Assembly: GCF_006542375.1 (NCBI RefSeq)
Contig: NZ_CP038143.1
Location: forward strand, 248,001 to 312,000
Length of the DNA: 64,000 bases
Direction: 5' to 3'
Source of the DNA: Oecophyllibacter saccharovorans
Lineage (GTDB): Bacteria > Pseudomonadota > Alphaproteobacteria > Acetobacterales > Acetobacteraceae
A model generated the notes under the pieces. It made no database searches and was not told the DNA's origin. It was given only the letters and a program-made list of their open reading frames with translations. The translations under genes were made by a program, and so were the position numbers. Positions 1,412-11,834 of this stretch are shown here, piece by piece. The stretch's first letter is position 1. Each line of letters opens with the position of its first letter.

Positions 1412-2934
1412 TCCAGCCAGCCACCCTGGAAGCCTGCTTTCTTCAAGGCTGCCTGAATGACGGGATTGCGCTTCATGACGTTCCAGACGAAACCGTTCCG
1501 CCAGTTTGCAATCATCAGCAGAATGGGTCCCTGATCGATGCCAATCTGCTGAGGATCGGCCCAGAAACCTTCAGGCGTGACGTAACTTGGATTGAAAGCA
1601 TCCACAAAGCCGTAACGGTTGTAGATCCGCTTGCCATAATGCGCTTTCATATCTTCAAGTGTCGGCAGTGCGATCTCCGGAGCAAAGGCGATTGACCCCC
1701 CTGCAGCTGTCGGGGCGATCGTGCCATCATCACTGACGTAATCAGCGCCGGCACCACGTGCGTTATAGGCCATGAAGTGGCGTTGCACCCCATCCACCCA
1801 CCGGGTGCCCTCCCCTGGTCCATCACTGGCTGTCAGGCCCCAGAGCGTGGCGCCGTAATCTTTCCAGTGACCGGGATTTCTGCGGGCATAGGCCAGCTGG
1901 GCATAAGCTGCCTTTCGCCCGTTGGAGAAATAGTCATTGTGGTGCTGGCGGTTGAAGTCGTCCTGCAGGTCGCGAAAATCAATCCAGGATTCGGAATACT
2001 GGTGACCGAACAGCGGGGCGAAGTTCAGGAACTCATGGCCTTCAAACGTTTTCCACTGCCCTGCGAAAGTGGCCGTCCAGGCCTGCCAGGTGGAAGCAGG
2101 CAGAGGATGGGTCGGCGAGCCCAGCGCAAGCAGATAGAGAATCAGTCCTTCATTGTACCCGCGCCATTCACTGCTCAGGAAATGAGAGGTGGGCGTGGGT
2201 GACCAGCCCATGTTCAGCAATGGTGGGTGCGGCTCCATCCACGGCCAGTCCACACGCCCGTACAGTGCCGCAGCAGTCCGACGGATTTCCTGCTCCTGCG
2301 CGTTTTCCTGATCAAAATAGGATTGGGAAAACAGCACGCCGACCATCAGCAAGGCAGTGTCGACGCTCGACAGCTCTGACCAGTCCGCAAAACGCAAACC
2401 CGTATGCGGATTGAGGAAATGATAGAAAAACCCCCTGTAGCCGGCCGCCCCGAGAGCTGAGTCGTTCTGGGGCAAGGCAAGCAGAAAGCGCAGCGTGCGC
2501 AACGTGCGCTCGGCCGCCTGCTGGCGGGTGATATATCCCTGATCAACGCCGATCCCGTAAGCCGTCAGCCCGAAGCCGACCGAAGCAATGCTGGCCGCCC
2601 CCTCCGGCAGGGGCGCGCGGTCGGGGATCAGACCGTTTTCAGGATTAGCCGTTTCCCAGAACCAGTCGAACGTCCGTCGTTCCAGATCTTCGACAAAAGC
2701 CCGGTCTGCTGGTGCCAGATCACTGAATTTCGCCGGGCCCTTCCCTGGAGCCAGCGGCTGTGTCTGCGCTTGTGGCGGCGCCTGATCCTGGGCGCGAGCG
2801 TTACTGCCAGGATAAAGCACCAGGAAAGCGGCTGCCAACCCGGCCGTTCCACGCAGGAGAACGTTCCTGACCCTGGCGAGAGTGCGTATATGTGGCGCAG
2901 CAGAAGGAAGGCTGATTACGGAAGATGGGGCCAT
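1399..2934 (-). CDS. Glycoamylase-domain glycoside hydrolase, exported
   Basis: A 511-residue protein with a hydrophobic N-terminal segment (LLRGTAGLAAAFLVLY) ending in NARAQ, which fits a signal peptide into the periplasm. The rest matches the glycoamylase-like family (PF10091, related to GH144 beta-1,2-glucanases), starting with LERRTFDWFWETANPENG and running through GFGLTAYGIGVDQGYI, YSESWIDFRDLQDD and the late GPILLMIANWRNGF. Known members act on beta-1,2- or other glucans; the substrate here is not visible. It starts only 15 bases after the stop of the C39-ABC exporter gene, so it is almost certainly in the exporter operon. That placement is unusual for a glucan hydrolase. Confidence 0.85.
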   Translation of the reverse strand: MAPSSVISLPSAAPHIRTLARVRNVLLRGTAGLAAAFLVLYPGSNARAQDQAPPQAQTQPLAPGKGPAKFSDLAPADRAFVEDLERRTFDWFWETANPENGLIPDRAPLPEGAASIASVGFGLTAYGIGVDQGYITRQQAAERTLRTLRFLLALPQNDSALGAAGYRGFFYHFLNPHTGLRFADWSELSSVDTALLMVGVLFSQSYFDQENAQEQEIRRTAAALYGRVDWPWMEPHPPLLNMGWSPTPTSHFLSSEWRGYNEGLILYLLALGSPTHPLPASTWQAWTATFAGQWKTFEGHEFLNFAPLFGHQYSESWIDFRDLQDDFNRQHHNDYFSNGRKAAYAQLAYARRNPGHWKDYGATLWGLTASDGPGEGTRWVDGVQRHFMAYNARGAGADYVSDDGTIAPTAAGGSIAFAPEIALPTLEDMKAHYGKRIYNRYGFVDAFNPSYVTPEGFWADPQQIGIDQGPILLMIANWRNGFVWNVMKRNPVIQAALKKAGFQGGWLDQTR

Positions 2935-2949
2935 GATAAATCCTGACGG

Positions 2950-5226
2950 TTATGCCGGACTGCCAGACAGACCGCCGGCAGTGGGGCCAGGAGCGGAAGG
3001 CGCCTGAGGCGACGGCGCGCCTCCGGCAGGCGGCCGGGGGCCATTAGTGCCAGGCTGGGCAGCAGCCCCACCGCCGACAAGCGCCCCCAGATTCAGGCGC
3101 ACAGAAGCATTTTCAATCGTTTCCAGACGATGGGCCACAATAACGCGCGTGATCTTGAGTTCATCAAGAAAGGCCGAAATCTTTCTCTCACGCTCTGAAT
3201 CCAGATTACTGGTCGCCTCGTCAAGAAACAGAATTTTGGGCCGCCGGTAAAGGGCACGGGCCAGGATCATGCGTTGGCGCTGCCCGCCTGAAAGTGTGCT
3301 TCCCATCTCGCCCACCAGGGTCTCAAAGCCCATGGGCATGCGTTTGATGTCGTCGAGAATCTGGGCGTTCTTGGCACATTCCTCCACCCAGGGCATGTCG
3401 ATATTGTCTGCAAAGCCGGCAATGTTTTCAGCAATGCTGCCCGAAAGCAGGATATCATCCTGCAGGACGCCTGCGATCTGGCTGCGATAGGCCTCGATGT
3501 TATTGGGACCCAGGGCCTGGCCGTTCCAGTAGATTTCCCCCTCTTCCGGATGGCTCATCCCCATGAGGATGGAAAGCAGGGTGGATTTGCCGCATCCGGA
3601 AGGACCGGTGATCGCCAGGCTCTCGCCGGCTTCGATGGTCAGGTTGAGATCCTTGAATACCCAGGAATCTTCCTTGCCGTAACGATAGCCAAGATTGCGG
3701 CATTCCAGCAGGGGCACCCCTTCCACTTCAGGCGGCGGTCCCTGGGGCAGCAGCTTCATGCCTGAAGTGCCATCAGGACCGGCCGGTCCGTCAGAGGGCA
3801 CCAGGTCAACTTCCCCTTCATTGGTTTCGGATTTCGCCAGCGCGATATCGGACAGGCGGTCCGTATGCACTTTGAGGTTGCGGATCTTGAAGGCAGCGGA
3901 AATAAGATTGCCCAGACGGCTGGAAAACTGGTCACGGTAGCTGAGAAAGGCCACCAGAACACCCACGGTCATGCTGCCGTCAAGGACCATGTTTGCCCCC
4001 AGGATCAGCATCAGCAACCGGTCAAAACCGAAGATGATATCATTGGCGCGCGAGAAGATCAGATCGTAGCGCTGGATCTTGAACTTGGCGTTGATGCTGT
4101 CAATCAGCTTGTTGACCCAGCCGACCTTCCGCTTTTCCTCAAGACCGAGCAGCTTGATGCTGCGAATGCCGCGGAGGGTCTCAAGGAACTGGCCCTGGCG
4201 CGCGGCGTCATGGACGAGGACTTCCTGCGACATTTCCCGGTAGGGGCCGTAATAGATCACACGGACCAGGATATCGATCAGCGAGGATGCCCCCACGACC
4301 AAGGCAAGCCACTGACCGTAGATGATGATCATCACCAGCATGCCGACCGCCATCAGCCCGTCCATGATGACCTGCACCACATCAGTGGTGAAGGCCTGCT
4401 GAATGGCGCCCAGGCTTCCGAAACGCGACAGGATGTCACCCGCGCCACGCTTGCTGAAATAATCCTGCGGCAGGCCGAGCAGATGACTGAGCAGGCTGAC
4501 ATTCCATTGAATGGAGATCCGCGTGGACATGAGCATGACTGTCCAGGAGCGGAAGGTGGAGATAACCGCCTGCACGAGCAGCAGAATCCCCATGCCGACA
4601 GCGATCGTCCACAGCAGGGAATGATCGCTTGTCGTCAGCACTTCATCAATGATGACCTGCGAAAGCATCGGGTTGATGAGGGCGATGACCTCCAGCCCCA
4701 GCGACAGAGCGCCCAGCGCCAGCAGCGTGCCCTTCAGAGCGCCCACATGGCGGAACATGTCGCGGATACTCAGCAGATGGCGGTCATCGCGCTTCTCGAA
4801 TTTCGCCGTCGGCGTCAGCTCCAGCGCCACACCGGTGAAATGCTTGGAGACCTCGGGATAGGTCAGCTTGCGCGGCCCCTGCCCCGGATCAATGATCTCG
4901 ACGTATTTGTCGCCCGCTTTCACCAGCACGACGAAGTGATTGAAGTCCCAGTGCAGGATGCAGGGCACGCTCAGCTTGCTCAGGGAGTCCAGATCAAGCT
5001 TGAGCGGACGCGCCTGCAGATCAAAGCGCCCAGCCAGATGAATGAGCGTGCGCAGTGTCAGCCCGGAGCCTGAAAGCCCGGCCTGTCGACGCAGGGTGGA
5101 GATATCTATCAGATGGCCATGCGCATTGAGGATCATGGCCAGGCAGGCCAGGCCGCATTCAGCATTTTCCGACTGCAGGATGGTCGGAATCTTCTTGCGG
5201 AAGCTGGTAACGATCGGCTTGAGCAT
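2950..5226 (-). CDS. Peptidase-C39 ABC exporter (PCAT), bacteriocin processing and export
   Basis: A 758-residue inner-membrane exporter that should remove double-glycine leaders and export the mature peptide. An N-terminal C39 peptidase domain (about residues 10-140) has a complete active site: Gln18 and Cys24 in QSENAECGLACLAM, His97 in HWDFNHFVVL and Asp113 in IIDPGQG. Six transmembrane segments follow (about 165-440), then an ATPase with Walker A GPSGCGKST (near 542), signature LSGGQRQR (near 647), Walker B ILFLDEATS and the H-loop VIVAHR. The last 45 residues are a Pro/Gly/Ala-rich tail not typical of the family. The start codon overlaps the HlyD stop by one base (TGATG), so translation is coupled. 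The likely substrates are the two leader peptides near 11.1-11.8 kb. Confidence 0.95.
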   Translation of the reverse strand: MLKPIVTSFRKKIPTILQSENAECGLACLAMILNAHGHLIDISTLRRQAGLSGSGLTLRTLIHLAGRFDLQARPLKLDLDSLSKLSVPCILHWDFNHFVVLVKAGDKYVEIIDPGQGPRKLTYPEVSKHFTGVALELTPTAKFEKRDDRHLLSIRDMFRHVGALKGTLLALGALSLGLEVIALINPMLSQVIIDEVLTTSDHSLLWTIAVGMGILLLVQAVISTFRSWTVMLMSTRISIQWNVSLLSHLLGLPQDYFSKRGAGDILSRFGSLGAIQQAFTTDVVQVIMDGLMAVGMLVMIIIYGQWLALVVGASSLIDILVRVIYYGPYREMSQEVLVHDAARQGQFLETLRGIRSIKLLGLEEKRKVGWVNKLIDSINAKFKIQRYDLIFSRANDIIFGFDRLLMLILGANMVLDGSMTVGVLVAFLSYRDQFSSRLGNLISAAFKIRNLKVHTDRLSDIALAKSETNEGEVDLVPSDGPAGPDGTSGMKLLPQGPPPEVEGVPLLECRNLGYRYGKEDSWVFKDLNLTIEAGESLAITGPSGCGKSTLLSILMGMSHPEEGEIYWNGQALGPNNIEAYRSQIAGVLQDDILLSGSIAENIAGFADNIDMPWVEECAKNAQILDDIKRMPMGFETLVGEMGSTLSGGQRQRMILARALYRRPKILFLDEATSNLDSERERKISAFLDELKITRVIVAHRLETIENASVRLNLGALVGGGAAAQPGTNGPRPPAGGAPSPQAPSAPGPTAGGLSGSPA

Positions 5227-6524
5227 CAGTGACGTTTCCCTGACAGCGAGATGACGTCATCAGCCATCGAAATGATCGGATCGAACAGCCACTGATAAAG
5301 CTTGCGACGGTCAGTGGCGATGTCAGCCTCAACAGCCATGCCGGGTTGCAGGCGCTCCTTCTTGCCATAGGCACGGACGAAATCCTGGTCCGGCAGCACG
5401 CGCACGCGGTAGACATCCTGCGGGGGATGCTGAGCCGCTGCCCCCTTGCCCTGGGGGGCCACCGAGCCTGCCTGATCAGGCATGGGGGCGCGCGTCACTT
5501 CAGTGACCGTGCCCTTGTAGAGGCCGAATTTCTGATAAGGAAACGGCGCGAATTTCAGCAGCACCCGCTGACCCGGCCGCAGGAAGCCGATGGCATGGCT
5601 GTCGACATAGAGTTCCGCCTGGAGAGTAGCGTTGTCGGGCAGCAGCGTGGCCATGGGCTGGCCTACCGATACGCGCTGACCCACATAAGTGCGGATACCG
5701 TCAATCACGCCTGCAACAGGAGCGACGATCAGCGTTTCCGCCTGGCCGCGTGCCTGGGTGATCTGGCGGTTGAGATCAGCCAGGCGTACGTCAATGTCGG
5801 TCACGTCCTCCTGGACCTTATAGGGATGCCGGTCGATTTTATACTGCAGGTCATTGATCTGACCGCCCGTCTCCACCATTGAGCGCAGGGTCTGGGAATG
5901 GGTGTTCATGAACTGCACGTAAGAGAAAAGCTGGCTCTGGAACTGCCCTTCCGAGACCAGATGCATGCCGATGGCTGTGCGCATCTCCTGCATGGCATGT
6001 TCGATCAGCGGCAGGGAGGTGTTGTCACGCTGGATCTGGGTGCCAAGCATCTCCCGCTGCTTCTGGAGCGTGACGAGTTCCTGTTTGAAGGAGGCCAGCT
6101 CTATCGGTGCGTCCGTCAGCAGAAGCTTGCGGCGCGCGGTCAGGAAATCGCGCTCATTCAGAAGGTGAAGCAGGGCCTGCTTGCCCGTCGGGCCGGCTGA
6201 AGACCAGCTTTCCACATCGACCGTATAAAGGGCCTGGCCGGCGTGAACGCTCATGCCTTCCTTGATATGAGCCGTAGTGACCACACCAGCCTGGTCGGCG
6301 GTGATCACGACCAACCCGCCTGGCGGCATCAGCTGGCCGGTGGCATGGACGCGACGGGTATAGCTGCCGAAAATAACATAGATGATCACGCCGAGAACCA
6401 GCGCCATCGTGCACCAGGCGGCGATCTTGCCTGATACCGGCTCGATCTCCAGGGTATCGCCGATCCAGGCTTCCTGTCGCCATTTCAGAGCTTCCGTACG
6501 AAAGAGCGGTTGCCCGTTTGCCAT
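5226..6524 (-). CDS. HlyD-family membrane fusion protein (CvaA-like adaptor)
   Basis: Periplasmic adaptor joining the inner-membrane ABC exporter to TolC. A short cytoplasmic N-terminus is followed by one membrane anchor (about residues 38-60, ALVLGVIIYVIFGSY), a lipoyl/barrel-sandwich half (GGLVVITADQAGVV), long helical hairpin segments and the closing half VAPVAGVIDGIRTYVGQRV, then the beta-barrel domain. At 432 residues it has the usual size of CvaA-type adaptors. A ribosome site GGAAAGG lies just upstream of the ATG. It is the first gene of the minus-strand export operon and is divergent from the TolC gene, with which it should assemble. Confidence 0.93.
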   Translation of the reverse strand: MANGQPLFRTEALKWRQEAWIGDTLEIEPVSGKIAAWCTMALVLGVIIYVIFGSYTRRVHATGQLMPPGGLVVITADQAGVVTTAHIKEGMSVHAGQALYTVDVESWSSAGPTGKQALLHLLNERDFLTARRKLLLTDAPIELASFKQELVTLQKQREMLGTQIQRDNTSLPLIEHAMQEMRTAIGMHLVSEGQFQSQLFSYVQFMNTHSQTLRSMVETGGQINDLQYKIDRHPYKVQEDVTDIDVRLADLNRQITQARGQAETLIVAPVAGVIDGIRTYVGQRVSVGQPMATLLPDNATLQAELYVDSHAIGFLRPGQRVLLKFAPFPYQKFGLYKGTVTEVTRAPMPDQAGSVAPQGKGAAAQHPPQDVYRVRVLPDQDFVRAYGKKERLQPGMAVEADIATDRRKLYQWLFDPIISMADDVISLSGKRH

Positions 6525-6694
6525 GCTTTACCTTTCCAGCGTATTTTGAGACACGTTTACCATCAAGAGGCACTCCCCTGACAGCCATCCCGCCAGAATT
6601 TTCGGACCGGGTCTTCATTTACCTTAAAATCAATAATTCGTATACCAGTATATATGTATGATTTTAACTTCCTGAGAGAGTCGAAGAGACCTTG

Positions 6695-8101
6695 ATGAGC
6701 AGAAAAGTCCTTTTTTCCACCCTGACCGTAGCGGCCTGCCTCCCGCATCTCGCGAGTGCTGCGCCTGTGCCGGTTATAAGGAAACAGATTGACCTGCGAC
6801 AGGCGCTCATATCGGCTTATCAGACCAATCCCGAGCTTCTGCGCCAGCGCGCCCTGCTGCGGCAGACGGATGAAGGCGTCTCACAGGCGCATTCAGGCTG
6901 GCGCCCCACGATCACCGGCAATGCCACGGCTGATTATAACCAGACGAATTACGTCTCGCACATCGCAAGCCCCCTTTCAGGAAAAAACTTCCGCTATACC
7001 CAGCGTTTTGCAGCGCCTGGCTACAATACCGGCGTGACGGTTTCCGAGCCCATCTTTCAGGGGGGCAAGACCGTTGCCTCGACCCGCAAGGCCGTCAATC
7101 AGGTCTATGCCGGGCGCGCGCAACTGATCAACACCGAACAGCAGGTGTTCCTGGAAACGGTGCAGGCTTACGTGAATCTTCTGCGCAGCCGCCAGCTGCT
7201 GGAACTCAACCGCCAGAATGAGATCACCCTGGCCAAGCAGGCCCAGCTGGCAGAAGAACAGTTTCAGTACAACCAGAACACACGCACGGACGTGCTGCAG
7301 GCCAGGTCCCAGCACAAAAGCGCACAGGCCGACACCCTGCAGGCCCAAAGCGATTACGCCATTGCCAAAAGCCAGTTCCAGAAGGTCGTGGGGTTTATGC
7401 CGCCTGACAATGTGGTGCCCGCCCGGCCCCTGGCTCTGCCCCTGCGCAGTTCGCAGGAAGCGGAAATGCTCGCCCTGACGCAGAACCCCAATATGATCGG
7501 CGCCAAATATGCGCTGGAGGCGGAAAAGGCCAATCTGAAGGTCGCCTTCTCCGCGCTGCTACCCAAGATTTCCATGCAGGGAAGCTACAATTACGGCGTC
7601 AACCAGGATTCGTCGAAATTTACCCAGGACAGTGAATACGTCGCCATCCAGGCCAATCTGCCCATTTATCAGGGCGGCGCTGAATATTCCCAGATCCGTG
7701 CTGCACGACAGGGAATCAGCGCAGCGCAGCAGGCCCTGGCCGAGCAGAGGCGCGATGTCATCCAGAGCACGGTTGCGGCCTGGCAGAAATTTGCGGCCGA
7801 TACTTCCAAATATGTCGATAACCAGAAATCCGTGCTGCTTGGCGAAGCGGCTTTCAAGTCCATTCAGCAGCAGGAGCTGCTAGGCGTGCGCACCACCTTT
7901 GAAGTGCTGCAGCAGCAGCAGATTCTCTTTGGCCAGCAACGTGCCTTGATCCAGAACCACGCTGATCTGGTCATCGATTCCTATGCGCTTGCTGCCCAGA
8001 TCGGCCAGCTTACGGCTGAAGGCCTGAAGCTCCAGACCCCCCTTTACAATCCGCGTGCCAATTACGACCGGGTGAAATGGAAGATGATCGGCACCCGCTG
8101 A
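6695..8101 (+). CDS. TolC-family outer-membrane efflux protein
   Basis: Outer-membrane channel of a type I secretion complex. It begins with a signal peptide (TLTVAACLPHLASAAP) and contains the two repeats of the TolC fold, for example QIDLRQALISAYQTNPELLRQRALL and VSEPIFQGGKTVASTRKAVNQV, then the second repeat NLPIYQGGAEYSQIRAARQG and a terminal LGVRTTFEVLQQQQ. The ATG at 6695 is preferred over an in-frame TTG immediately upstream because the purine-rich stretch GAGAGAGTCGAAGAGA precedes it. It is divergent from the HlyD/ABC operon with a 170-base AT-rich promoter region between them, so the three components are probably co-regulated. Confidence 0.93.
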   Translation: MSRKVLFSTLTVAACLPHLASAAPVPVIRKQIDLRQALISAYQTNPELLRQRALLRQTDEGVSQAHSGWRPTITGNATADYNQTNYVSHIASPLSGKNFRYTQRFAAPGYNTGVTVSEPIFQGGKTVASTRKAVNQVYAGRAQLINTEQQVFLETVQAYVNLLRSRQLLELNRQNEITLAKQAQLAEEQFQYNQNTRTDVLQARSQHKSAQADTLQAQSDYAIAKSQFQKVVGFMPPDNVVPARPLALPLRSSQEAEMLALTQNPNMIGAKYALEAEKANLKVAFSALLPKISMQGSYNYGVNQDSSKFTQDSEYVAIQANLPIYQGGAEYSQIRAARQGISAAQQALAEQRRDVIQSTVAAWQKFAADTSKYVDNQKSVLLGEAAFKSIQQQELLGVRTTFEVLQQQQILFGQQRALIQNHADLVIDSYALAAQIGQLTAEGLKLQTPLYNPRANYDRVKWKMIGTR

Positions 8102-8377: not shown

Positions 8378-9934
8378 TCAGCCAGCGACAGCCAGACGCT
8401 CGGGTTGCACGGACAGGTCATTTTCACCCTGCAGCAGATACGGGCCAGCTGCCAGGATTTCAATAGCCACCAGCTGGGAAGCAGCGTTTTTGTCTGCAGA
8501 CAGCGGCAGCCAGGCGCGACCGTTGGTCCAGCGGCAGGGGGTCTGCTCAACCACATCCCAACCCGCAAGATCTGCCTGCTGCAGATGGGCGCTTAGATCA
8601 CGGCTTTCATCACCAGCGAATCCGCGCACCTGGCCGACCAGAACACCTAGGTGGCGGCGGTCATCAACAAAGGGGCCGATAGTCTGGTCCGGGCGGGCGG
8701 TGCGGGAGCACACATACACACCGGTAGCGGAAGCCGGCACCTCGAAGGTCACCCAGTTACCATTGCGGCGCTGGGCAGAGAGGCGCTGACCATCCTTCGT
8801 CTCCAGGTACAGATCCGGCTCGGAAGACAGCACGGGCTGAGCCGGCGCTGCGTAACCGGCTGCCTGCGCACGGGCCTGCAGGCGTTCGTAAAGCGGCTGG
8901 ACAAAAGCGGTCTCGACGCAGAGCGGGGCGGCCGCATCATCCCAGCTCTTGCTGCCCACGGAATGGATCTGGAAGGCCGTGCCGGCCGGCATCACGTGCG
9001 GGGTGTCCAGATAGCTTTCGGTCATCGCGCCGTTGGCGTTGATCACGGCGTGGTCCTGCAGCTCGACGTGATAGACATCAAACGCACCCTGGCGGACATC
9101 ACGGACGATGCTGGAGCCGTTGACCAGCATGCGGGCCGGCACGAAGCGGCCATCAAAATACATGCAGTGCTCGGGCGTGACGGTCAGGTCCTGCATCGGC
9201 ACGTTGTCACCCAGCGAATCCTTGCGGAAGGTCACGGGCTGTTCGTCAAGAGAAGCCTGGGAAACCGTCTTGCGCACCAGGGCCTGAAGCGGCGCGAACC
9301 CCTTGCGCCCCTCCTGCCAGGTCGCCACCCGGTCACCCGCCTTCAGGGACTCGACCGCGCGATATCCTTCGGCGGTCTCGATCAGGCTACCGGCCAGAAA
9401 GCAGACAACCACATCCGGCACACCGGAAGTAGCAGCATTCATGCCGGTATCATATTCAGCCCCCTGGTTAGGAGTATCATGCCCATCCGGTAGATTCTGC
9501 TTACCAGTATAGGCATTGGCATCCATATTCTTTACAGAATCTGTCGAAATGCCAATATAGTTATCTCCTGCTACCAGAGAACTCGTACCTTCAGAACCCT
9601 GCGGAGAAAAGATGAGAATGGTGGCACCATCTGGAGTTGTTTTATACCCTACAAAAGCCATCTGCATGTCCACCTCTCCGCCGGACCCATTGACAACATG
9701 AGCTGTCACTATTTGGCCCACTTGAGTGATGGTAGTAGCATTATCAAATGTGATTGATTGAACATCATAGGTTTGATTAAGAGGACCGTACTTTACTTTA
9801 GGATCGCCACTCCAGTCAAAGCCATCGCCTTGACCGTTCGGTCCATTATAGGTGTAAGTACCCATCGCATGGTCCTGGCCATTAGGAGAAGTAGCATCTC
9901 CGAATGTCGTGCCCGCTGGAATCGTTGCAGCCAT
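8378..9934 (-). CDS. Hint_2-domain protein with acquired N-terminal domain
   Basis: 518 residues in three parts. Residues 1 to about 175 form a domain shared with the next gene upstream (10250-10843): FDWSGDP, TILIFSPQG, NAYTG and QNLPDG recur in both. A Hint (hedgehog/intein) module starts at the Cys of VVVCFLAGSLIETAEGYRAV and carries LKAGDRVATW, the TPEHCMYFDGRFVPA histidine motif and HVELQDHAVINANG. A C-terminal region of about 200 residues contains DDRRHLGVLVGQVRG. Hint_2 proteins are common in Acetobacteraceae and are usually linked to secreted or surface proteins; self-cleavage at the Cys is inferred. No double-glycine leader or signal peptide is seen. The ribosome site is GAGGATTTTG before the ATG. 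Confidence 0.85.
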   Translation of the reverse strand: MAATIPAGTTFGDATSPNGQDHAMGTYTYNGPNGQGDGFDWSGDPKVKYGPLNQTYDVQSITFDNATTITQVGQIVTAHVVNGSGGEVDMQMAFVGYKTTPDGATILIFSPQGSEGTSSLVAGDNYIGISTDSVKNMDANAYTGKQNLPDGHDTPNQGAEYDTGMNAATSGVPDVVVCFLAGSLIETAEGYRAVESLKAGDRVATWQEGRKGFAPLQALVRKTVSQASLDEQPVTFRKDSLGDNVPMQDLTVTPEHCMYFDGRFVPARMLVNGSSIVRDVRQGAFDVYHVELQDHAVINANGAMTESYLDTPHVMPAGTAFQIHSVGSKSWDDAAAPLCVETAFVQPLYERLQARAQAAGYAAPAQPVLSSEPDLYLETKDGQRLSAQRRNGNWVTFEVPASATGVYVCSRTARPDQTIGPFVDDRRHLGVLVGQVRGFAGDESRDLSAHLQQADLAGWDVVEQTPCRWTNGRAWLPLSADKNAASQLVAIEILAAGPYLLQGENDLSVQPERLAVAG

Positions 9935-9974
9935 AATTCAAAATCCTCGCAAGAAAGAAGGTAAGAGATAAATT

Positions 9975-10003
9975 ATCTTAAGATACCCTTCTCACCTTCA
10001 CAA
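9975..10003 (-). promoter_or_regulatory. Candidate promoter of the Hint gene
   Basis: On the minus strand TTGTGA (-35, complement of 9998-10003) and TAAGAT (-10, complement of 9975-9980) are 17 bases apart. The -10 sits in the perfect palindrome TATCTTAAGATA, a possible operator. A very similar arrangement precedes the stand-alone paralogue at 10917-10946, which supports the call. The remaining 9935-10249 gap holds the terminator and ORF remnant listed separately. Confidence 0.5.
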
Positions 10004-10049
10004 CCAGAAATTAACCTGTTTCTCAAATAAAAAGTGTCTTAAAAACAGG

Positions 10050-10081
10050 AATACCCAGAGAACCGGAGCTCTCTGGGTATT
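10050..10081 (-). terminator. Terminator copy A of the bacteriocin/Hint locus
   Basis: AATACCCAGAGA (10050-10061) pairs with TCTCTGGGTATT (10070-10081) around an 8-base loop. On the minus strand it is followed by CCTGTTTTTAAG, a uridine tract. The same stem with the same flanks recurs at 11000-11032, so the 3' region has been duplicated. Confidence 0.7.
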
Positions 10082-10122
10082 TTCCCAGCGTACCTAGATT
10101 TTCAGCCAGGTGGCGCGAAGAA

Positions 10123-10270
10123 TCAGGCCTGATTCAAACTTGACAGTGACCAATAAGCCTCAAGATTTTCTTGAAGAAAATATGAAGCCCAAGGATGAAT
10201 AATCTCAAAATCATCCTTTAATTCTTACTGCAGGTATTCCAGCCATTTTTCAGATGAAAATGATTCCTGA
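10123..10270 (-). pseudogene. Decayed ORF downstream of the stand-alone domain gene
   Basis: On the minus strand, in a frame shifted from the preceding gene, the codons read SSEKWLEYLQ, a TAA stop (10225-10227), then ELKDDFEIIHPWASYFLQEN and on to a TGA at 10123-10125. The 33-codon segment after the TAA has no usable start codon and a protein-like composition. Its stop codon and the following DNA align with the stop and 3' flank of the first bacteriocin gene. It could be the remnant of a lost small gene or of a longer form of the preceding protein. Function unknown. Confidence 0.35.
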
Positions 10271-10843
10271 AGGAACGTCGGAGATAGCAGCATTCATGCC
10301 GTCATCGTATTCAGCCCCCTGATTAGGCGTGTTCGTCCCATCGGGGAGATTCTGCTGACCGGTGTAAGCATTGGCGGACATGGCGCTGAGGGTAGAAGAA
10401 GCAATGCCAACGTATTTGTTACCCGGCACCAGGGTTGTTGGACCATCCGTCGTCGCCCCGCCCTGCGGAGAGAAGATAAGAATGGTAGTACCATCCGGAG
10501 TTTCGTTAAAGCCAACATAAGTCATAACTACATCGAAGACTTCACCGCTGGTGTCATCCACCACCTGGGTGTTCACCGGCTGGCTCAACTTGGTGATTTC
10601 CGCACCAACCTTCTGGCCGTCCTTGGTGATTTCCCCACTATCAGGGAAAGTAATTGAAGCGACAACAAGCCTTCTGCTCATAGCACCGATATTGATTCTG
10701 AACTGGGGGTCGCCACTCCAGTCGAAGGAATCACCCTGACCCTCCGGCCCTTCATAGACATAAGTACCCAGAGCATGTTCGCTACCGGTATTTGAGCTGA
10801 CATCATCAGCGAAAACGACAGACGGTCTAATAATAGCAGTCAT
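10250..10843 (-). CDS. Stand-alone paralogue of the Hint protein's N-terminal domain
   Basis: A 197-residue protein of unknown function. Nearly its whole length aligns with the first 175 residues of the Hint protein downstream: GTYVYEGPEGQGDSFDWSGD against GTYTYNGPNGQGDGFDWSGD, and PDGTTILIFSPQG, QNLPDGTNTPNQGAEYDDGM against their counterparts. It ends DVPSGIIFI, at exactly the point where the partner enters its Hint module (GVPDVVVCF). It is acidic, has one obvious hydrophobic residue cluster only at the end, and lacks a signal peptide or double-glycine leader. It is lower in GC than most genes here. The ribosome site AAGGGAAACC precedes the ATG. The domain may be secreted by the neighbouring exporter, but that is inference. 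Confidence 0.8.
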   Translation of the reverse strand: MTAIIRPSVVFADDVSSNTGSEHALGTYVYEGPEGQGDSFDWSGDPQFRINIGAMSRRLVVASITFPDSGEITKDGQKVGAEITKLSQPVNTQVVDDTSGEVFDVVMTYVGFNETPDGTTILIFSPQGGATTDGPTTLVPGNKYVGIASSTLSAMSANAYTGQQNLPDGTNTPNQGAEYDDGMNAAISDVPSGIIFI

Positions 10844-10946: not shown

Positions 10947-10999
10947 TCAGAATTGAAACTGCTGGGTATGAGGGAGCTGAACATGACTTCAAAAACAGA

Positions 11000-11032
11000 A
11001 ATACCCAGAGAGCCGAAACTCTCTGGGCATTC
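11000..11032 (-). terminator. Terminator copy B, end of the bacteriocin gene pair
   Basis: AATACCCAGAGAG pairs with CTCTCTGGGCATT around a short loop, about 40 bases after the stop of the first-listed bacteriocin gene. Minus-strand read-out continues into TTCTGTTTTTGAAG. It is a near copy of the element at 10050-10081. Confidence 0.75.
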
Positions 11033-11072
11033 TTCTAACTCACCTTGCTTTTCAGCACAGTGAAGGAAGAAA

Positions 11073-11426
11073 TCAGGTCAGGGAGCTGCCGCCACCCGCA
11101 CCGGCATTGGCCGGGGAGATCGTGCCGCTGGTGATGCCCTGCATGATCTGCTTCTGGACATCAGCGGTGCCGGAGTTACCGTTAACCGCACCCAGGATCG
11201 CACCACCGATAGCACCGTAGGCGGCGCCGTAGATCACGCCAACCAGGTTGCCGACGGGGCCCAGGCCGACCTGGCCGCCGTTGCTGCCACCGAAGCGACC
11301 ACCGATGATGGCGCCGGCTTCACCGCAATCAGCAGCCATGTTGATGGCGCCAGCGACGGAGTCCACGAAACCCAGGGAGAAACCACCGGAGACTTCTTCA
11401 ACTTCGAAAATGTTAAGTTCCTGCAT
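11073..11426 (-). CDS. Double-glycine-leader bacteriocin precursor, peptide A
   Basis: A 117-residue precursor. The first 15 residues MQELNIFEVEEVSGG are a classic double-glycine leader (M-R/Q-E-L...E..VSGG), as in microcin V and class IIb/IIc bacteriocins. Cleavage after Gly15 would give about 102 residues. The mature part is rich in Gly and small hydrophobics with repeated GxxxG spacing (GAIIGGRFGGSNGG, GNLVG, AIGGAILGAVNG), a single Cys in AADCGEAG and a Ser/Gly-rich end. Such peptides usually insert in target membranes. It follows peptide B in one transcription unit (78-base gap) and has AAGGATTATCCTC before the ATG. Family placement is strong; target and activity are unknown. Confidence 0.88.
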   Translation of the reverse strand: MQELNIFEVEEVSGGFSLGFVDSVAGAINMAADCGEAGAIIGGRFGGSNGGQVGLGPVGNLVGVIYGAAYGAIGGAILGAVNGNSGTADVQKQIMQGITSGTISPANAGAGGGSSLT

Positions 11427-11504: not shown

Positions 11505-11834
11505 TCAGATGCCGCCGCCGGTCACGATGCTGCCGCTGACGATGCCCTTAACGGCATTCGCCTCAACCTGAGCTTCACCGGACTGACCGTTCACGAAGCC
11601 CTGGGCCACGCCAGCAATGGTGCCACCGATGGCGCCACCGACGGTGCCAACCAGGTTGCCGAACAGGCCGATGCCGATCACGCCGCCGTTGCTGCCACCG
11701 AAGCGACCGCCGTAGATGGCGCCGGTCCAGCCGGAGATCATGCCATAGTTGATGGCACCGGCGAGGGAATCAGCGAAGCCCTGGCTCAGGCCACCGGAGA
11801 CTTCTTCAACTTCGAAAATGTTAAGTTCCTGCAT
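11505..11834 (-). CDS. Double-glycine-leader bacteriocin precursor, peptide B
   Basis: A 109-residue precursor and the first gene of the pair. It has the same leader, MQELNIFEVEEVSGG, encoded by identical DNA to peptide A, giving a mature product of about 94 residues. The mature part shares GAIYGGRFGGSNGG, GNLVG and GGAIGG with peptide A and is also Gly-rich with GxxxG repeats, but has no Cys and carries a Trp (SGWTGAIYGG). Two non-identical GxxxG peptides side by side is the hallmark of two-peptide bacteriocins. GGAGTATTGAA precedes the ATG. The exporter with matching C39 peptidase is 5 kb away. Whether the two peptides act together is untested. Confidence 0.88.
   Translation of the reverse strand: MQELNIFEVEEVSGGLSQGFADSLAGAINYGMISGWTGAIYGGRFGGSNGGVIGIGLFGNLVGTVGGAIGGTIAGVAQGFVNGQSGEAQVEANAVKGIVSGSIVTGGGI

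Follow-up and report, generated by a model that had tools for sequence, protein, structure and literature searches.

How can one domain come to exist twice at the same locus, once fused to a Hint module and once alone, beside what looks like a bacteriocin export system? This question was raised by an earlier note on a 64,000-nucleotide stretch of DNA (the window), in which the shared part was read as a cargo domain available in a self-cleaving and a non-cleaving form. The source genome (1.94 Mb, the sole genome of its genus in our set) contains one Hint_2 gene and two copies of this domain, termed the passenger domain. It belongs to the Acetobacteraceae, the family that also includes A. farinalis and four Bombella species. 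The locus is arranged as follows.

2950..5226, minus strand: ABC exporter with an N-terminal C39 peptidase (Peptidase_C39 E 1.5e-37, ABC_membrane, ABC_tran)
5226..6524, minus strand: HlyD-type adaptor (HlyD_3 E 2.6e-18)
6692..8101, plus strand: TolC-type outer-membrane protein (OEP E 1.5e-49)
8378-9934, minus strand: Hint-protein gene, 518 aa, ATG start
8378..9001, minus strand: C-terminal domain of the Hint protein, residues 312-518 and stop codon, no Pfam name (conservation)
9002..9403, minus strand: Hint_2 domain, residues 178-311, with Cys178, Thr253-Pro-Glu-His256 and His289 (Pfam, conservation, predicted fold)
9404..9934, minus strand: passenger domain of the Hint protein, residues 1-177, Cys-free (BLASTP, profile, composition)
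10041..10127, minus strand: duplicated block upstream of the Hint gene, terminator-like hairpin at 10050-10081
10250..10843, minus strand: stand-alone passenger paralogue, 197 aa, Cys-free, Hint-free, ATG start (ORF, BLASTP, composition)
10991..11077, minus strand: duplicated block upstream of the stand-alone gene, terminator-like hairpin at 10999-11032
11073..11426, minus strand: double-glycine (GG)-leader peptide 1, 117 aa (MQELNIFEVEEVSGG...)
11505..11834, minus strand: GG-leader peptide 2, 109 aa, leader as in peptide 1

Two paralogous genes with a boundary at the Hint cysteine

BLASTP comparison of the 518-aa Hint protein with its 197-aa neighbour revealed 98 identical residues among 195 (50%, E 2e-56), which bears out the paralogy claimed in the earlier note, and the blocks QNLPDG and TPNQGAEYD that it had cited each occur in both proteins. 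The match spans all of the short protein and residues 1-177 of the long one, so that the shared part is real and its length by alignment is 177 residues rather than the 175 first given. At the boundary, I195 of the short protein is aligned to V177 of the Hint protein, after which the short protein adds FI and ends, while at the codon level ATT TTC ATC and the TGA stop align with GTC TGC TTT CTG of the Hint gene. The stand-alone protein had been said to stop exactly at the Hint Cys of its partner; this holds to within 2 residues, with the end lying 2 residues past Cys178. Examination of the sequence downstream of the stand-alone gene found no relic of a Hint domain. Over 177 aligned codons the paralogues have a dN of 0.36 and a dS of 1.45 (dN/dS about 0.25), so both copies look maintained. 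The 87-nt blocks preceding the two genes are 75% identical, each with a terminator-like hairpin of 14-15 bp, and this common upstream block, together with the dS and dN values, is as expected from an old tandem duplication. A promoter scan yielded 4 sites versus 2.8 expected and was uninformative.

The Hint domain keeps its catalytic residues, with N-terminal cleavage the probable outcome

Analysis of the Hint protein indicated that residues 177-311 match PF13403 (Hint_2) at E 2.7e-34, with 119.1 bits against a gathering cut-off of 28.4, and that the catalytic Cys1 (Cys178) and the block-B TxxH motif (T253-H256) are present. Among 137 different Hint genes from the fetched loci, which were filtered on Cys at position 1, His256 and His289 are invariant and position 253 is T (106) or S (31); four further Hint listings in which Cys1 is absent are fragments or decayed copies. 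Near the end of the domain there is no fixed Asn, position 301 being D in 70, N in 37, E in 29, and S in 1 of the 137, and the His-Asn dipeptide is absent from the end of the window Hint domain (VELQDHAVINANGAMTESYLDT). Because the His-Asn end is absent, N-terminal cleavage is likelier than splicing, and established Hint chemistry is the basis for expecting such cleavage.

The predicted structure is confident over the Hint part and resembles BIL, intein, and Hedgehog structures, with a Z score of 12.3 against the bacterial BIL domain 2lwy (2.1 Å over 119) and of 10.1 against Hedgehog 1at0 (2.8 Å over 118). A sequence search of the PDB with the Hint part gave nothing convincing, the BIL domain 2lwy appearing at 0.098. 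Residues 312-518 constitute a domain conserved across Acetobacteraceae Hint_2 proteins (GPFVDDRR, RWT), which has no match in a Pfam search and is barely reached by the fold comparison; it is a possible export or anchoring module.

The passenger domain belongs to an unnamed family of acetic-acid bacteria

The passenger domain matched no family in Pfam, NCBIfam, or PHROGs. With a two-row profile of the window copies, searches of 100, 397, and 385 genomes yielded nothing at E 0.001 or better beyond the source genome; four weak matches had E values of 0.004-0.007, and two of these contain internal stops. Passenger-domain scans of plasmids, viruses, and genome contigs likewise found no member, and a phage search with the whole Hint protein as the query gave no match. 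The structural model of the passenger is poor (mean pLDDT 50); Foldseek with this model returned nothing at E 0.001 or better, and the PDB sequence search with the passenger profile returned nothing convincing (best 0.069).

Candidates for distant members came from comparison by eye of short passengers and from the GG peptides upstream of the A. farinalis Hint genes. A non-window profile was built from seven passengers, two from A. farinalis, two from Saccharibacter, and one each from genomes G285, G289, and G013, the last three reached via the peptide search before being used as rows. With this profile, whose rows were picked partly by eye and by neighbourhood, the stand-alone protein was found at E 3.2e-7 and the fused passenger at 3.3e-5; among about 150 passengers, the one ranked after them reached 0.58. 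The hhalign probability was 73.5% for the window passengers versus no more than 2.8% for 47 other clusters. A nine-row alignment was then run against 77 genomes, hand-picked from those already examined, mostly small and including the peptide-positive ones. The members are the two window copies (G000), two in A. farinalis (G030), those in G013, G285, and G289, one at a contig end in G355, and four, one with a stop, in Saccharibacter sp. 17.LH.SD (G140, the same genome as G777). A match in Gluconobacter sphaericus (86% coverage), where the passenger is an S/T/N-rich stretch, and one in A. oryzoeni (95% coverage), where the Hint protein has about 1,040 aa, were not counted as members.

An orphan domain was therefore rejected, since profiles with distant rows find members in five other acetic-acid genera. 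The earlier note had stated that the domain matches no known family and had called for a sensitive profile search and a look for further Hint fusions. The lack of a curated family stands, the uniqueness does not, and the searches supplied both distant homologues and the fusions: of the 10 members found elsewhere, 9 carry a Hint fusion, and the contig of the tenth (G355) ends before the downstream part. The sole stand-alone member found is 10250-10843.

Origin of the stand-alone copy

With all ten other members fused where visible, loss of Hint in the window is favoured, and the stand-alone copy most likely either shed its Hint module or never acquired one. A different history, compatible with the mechanism proposed below, is that a foreign Hint module was attached to the passenger at the Cys, with no Hint lost from the sister copy. 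Third-position GC content is 0.395 in the passenger and steps up at the Cys to 0.815 in the Hint part; of 134 other Hint genes, only 2 have a jump of more than 0.4. In addition, the window Hint part groups with Bombella Hint parts carrying another passenger (SH-aLRT 82). The same tree is weak, however, passenger GC3 is lower anyway in 100 of the 134 genes, and every other member is fused where visible; such module exchange is thus possible but doubtful. The members do not form one clade in the Hint-part tree (5 changes versus a shuffled mean of 9.6), which counts against the mechanism proposed below, although their Hint parts may still have a single origin.

GG-leader peptides adjoin the passenger family

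The window combines GG leaders with a C39-ABC exporter, two features of a GG-leader bacteriocin locus. The A. farinalis peptides score 34.6 and 38.5 bits against DUF5862 (PF19180; cut-off 33.3 bits), and the window peptides lie below this cut-off, at 18.2 bits for peptide 1 and without a match for peptide 2. When the window and A. farinalis peptides were combined in a profile, it matched 18 of 397 family genomes; the 12 genomes with a best E of 5.2e-12 or better were accepted as real, one being that of the window and the other 11 providing 12 regions.

In A. farinalis, each of the two tandem Hint genes has a window-like GG peptide directly upstream. The distance from a GG peptide to a Hint gene or piece of passenger is no more than about 0.3 kb in both A. 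farinalis units and in G285, G289, G013, G355 (a passenger piece, up to the contig end), and G040, where the Hint gene carries another passenger. Of the six genera with the passenger domain, five have it next to GG peptides; in the sixth, Saccharibacter, the 16-18 kb fetched for the four members contain no GG peptide. In the five Bombella-genus regions with a window-type peptide, about 3.8-4.5 kb separates the peptide from the closest Hint gene, which carries another passenger; the intervening genes include a multicopper oxidase in the one annotated region. C39-ABC and HlyD genes are found in 7 of the 12 fetched peptide regions, as well as in the window. The 9,710-base contig that carries the G285 copy also encodes a Rep3 initiator and a relaxase-like protein (below cut-off), with no exporter; therefore, the peptide and the passenger-Hint gene can travel as a pair. 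The presence of the passenger domain beside GG peptides in other genera suggests that the two work together.

A leader-motif scan around Hint genes (L036-L129), with a pattern drawn from known leaders and with five loci from closely related Bombella-type genomes, placed 10 of 12 matches within 1 kb of a Hint gene, a zone of 187,543 of 1,267,355 bases. Of these ten, eight represent different GG peptides, encoded next to an unrelated passenger in Bombella or Bombella-like genomes. In the profile search a window-type peptide occurs within 1 kb of only 1 of 94 non-member Hint genes; a Fisher value computed with that search is set aside as biased, since G285, G289, and G013 had entered the passenger profile by way of their peptides. 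The motif matches indicate that the GG-peptide link extends beyond the passenger family of the window.

In Bombella-type genomes, a second kind of GG-leader peptide (MRALN..ELDSVSGG, MRTLNEHELNEVSGG) flanks Hint_2 genes whose passenger is unrelated (L077:6687-7049, 9132-9473; L085:3616-3978, 6084-6425; L088:2075-2434, 4471-4794; L080:9129-9470; L093:9128-9487). Separately, at about 9.1-16.3 kb in four loci (L164-L167), GG-leader peptides lie beside a C39-ABC/HlyD/TolC exporter in four Bombella species, namely Bombella favorum (G250), B. intestini (G209), B. mellum (G356), and B. apis (G389). In the accessible part of a published BAGEL4 screen of Bombella, no bacteriocins are reported (PMC9147383).

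Hint_2 proteins carry many different passengers in Acetobacteraceae

Hint_2 was detected in 156 of 200 family genomes, with up to 18 scored per genome, and 138 excised passengers fell into 49 clusters. The passengers are rich in S, T, N, and G. Cys accounts for 79 of 55,779 residues in 145 different passengers (0.14%), for 1.24% of the Hint and C-terminal parts, and for 0.85% of 12 other window ORFs. A Cys-poor composition is usual for exported proteins. The general theme, as read from these sequences, is a variable passenger on a constant Hint domain and C-terminal tail. Stand-alone twins were rejected as a general pattern: in a check covering passengers in loci of 4 kb or more, 16 of 138 have a same-locus paralogue, always inside another Hint gene.

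The abundance of Hint_2 and the diversity of its passengers favour an explanation in which Hint_2 with the C-terminal domain serves many unrelated surface passengers as a tail common across Acetobacteraceae, GG peptides being nearby by chance. Hint genes on many small plasmids, one of them beside an O-heptosyltransferase gene for autotransporter repeats, point the same way. We nevertheless consider this explanation unlikely, given the GG peptides adjoining members in five genera, the concentration of GG motifs at Hint genes, and the G285 pair on its 9.7 kb contig with no exporter.

Some individual Hint_2 genes were recorded in passing. Very small Acetobacter plasmids carry them (NC_021979.1, 3,851 bp; AP014883.1, 6,331 bp; NC_021977.1, 11,105 bp). 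On an Acetobacter oryzoeni plasmid (L204), an annotated autotransporter strand-loop-strand O-heptosyltransferase gene (6073-7332) adjoins the Hint protein (2834-6067), which suggests glycosylated surface passengers. The passenger of the Hint gene in L021 (residues 1-213) resembles a trypsin-type protease by eye (LTAAHVV, GSSGGPV).

A proposed mechanism and its alternatives

We propose that the passenger-Hint-C-terminal precursor would be exported and that Hint would catalyse an N-to-S acyl shift at Cys178. Water or a different nucleophile would then free the passenger at Val177, as with Hedgehog or N-cleaving BIL domains, and no splicing would take place. The GG peptides would be exported by the adjacent C39 ABC system, and the released passenger may work alongside them at or outside the cell surface, for example by forming part of a bacteriocin-like activity, carrying it, or protecting it. 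The tandem duplicate that stands alone would encode something close to the released passenger. We give this reading, a Hint-released passenger from an exported precursor acting outside the cell with GG peptides, slightly better than an even chance. The Cys-poor passengers count for it; the missing Hint relic, the Saccharibacter members without a GG peptide, the distant Bombella Hint genes, the rarity of GG peptides near non-member Hint genes, the poor passenger model, and a Hint-part tree in which the members are not one clade count against it. The cargo-domain reading of the earlier note survives in that the domain occurs with and without Hint beside a GG-leader/C39 system and the catalytic residues are present, but the stand-alone form is an exception and not a standing alternative.

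The stand-alone copy might instead be cytoplasmic, lacking the C-terminal domain, and serve for example as an immunity protein or a regulator binding the partner of the released passenger. The protein has no GG leader or obvious signal peptide by eye, its gene has its own upstream hairpin block, both copies are under selection, and no other immunity gene was recognised at the locus. On the other side, a stand-alone homologue was found nowhere else and the export role of the C-terminal domain is itself putative, and we regard a cytoplasmic role as improbable.

It is very unlikely that the Val177 thioester is passed to a GG peptide, lipid, or sugar in a Hedgehog-like ligation system for bacteriocins; in that event the passenger would be attached to a peptide or to the cell surface, and the Hint-less twin would be the unattached form. 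Equally hard to credit is an inactive Hint domain kept as a structural remnant, given the retention of Cys178, T/S253, His256, and His289 across the 137 Hint genes.

Significance and comparison with known systems

Hint_2 is very common in acetic-acid bacteria and their relatives, yet almost nothing was found in print. Literature searches, with most subscription journals outside their coverage, found no paper pairing the Hint domain with Acetobacteraceae or Gluconobacter and none on DUF5862. Among the matches listed, those for bacteriocin or C39 contained no mention of a Hint domain, and those for PF13403 were unrelated HINT2 papers. Hint-domain proteins beside a polyketide cluster in Asaia are mentioned in passing in the part of one article available to us (PMC8776678). 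Through its tie to GG-leader peptides, the passenger family offers a testable function for at least one Hint_2 class, and the naturally occurring Hint-bearing and Hint-less copies provide a built-in control for what cleavage achieves. It further directs attention to bacteriocin-like loci in bee symbionts that have escaped annotation.

Like GG-leader class II bacteriocins and microcins, the locus has the leader motif, Gly-rich peptides, and C39-ABC and HlyD genes nearby; unlike them, its peptides fall under the DUF5862 cut-off, are bacteriocin-like by sequence alone, and have a putative Hint partner of a kind that none of the papers searched describes. The order of passenger, Hint, and post-Hint region (312-518) and the Hint fold (1at0) recall Hedgehog/Hog proteins, although the part corresponding in position to the sterol-recognition region has no Pfam match and is barely covered by the fold comparison. 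According to the portion of PMC7765530 that was available, BIL domains sit in variable parts of bacterial proteins; A-type domains have a conserved His-Asn at the C-terminal end, and B-type domains have the intein motifs minus the C-terminal one and undergo N-terminal cleavage. The predicted fold of the window Hint part is BIL-like (2lwy). It lacks the His-Asn end of the A type and differs from BIL domains in being followed by a conserved domain of about 200 residues, and its motif pattern, judged by motifs alone, is compatible with the B type. With the Hint_2 (PF13403) proteins of Alphaproteobacteria it shares Cys1, TxxH, the conserved His, and a Hint domain of about 135 residues, and with those of Acetobacteraceae the same C-terminal domain after Hint. 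By these features the window Hint protein is a variant of known Hint_2/BIL proteins, set apart from other Hint_2 proteins by an unnamed passenger family, its link to GG peptides, and the presence of a Hint-less twin.
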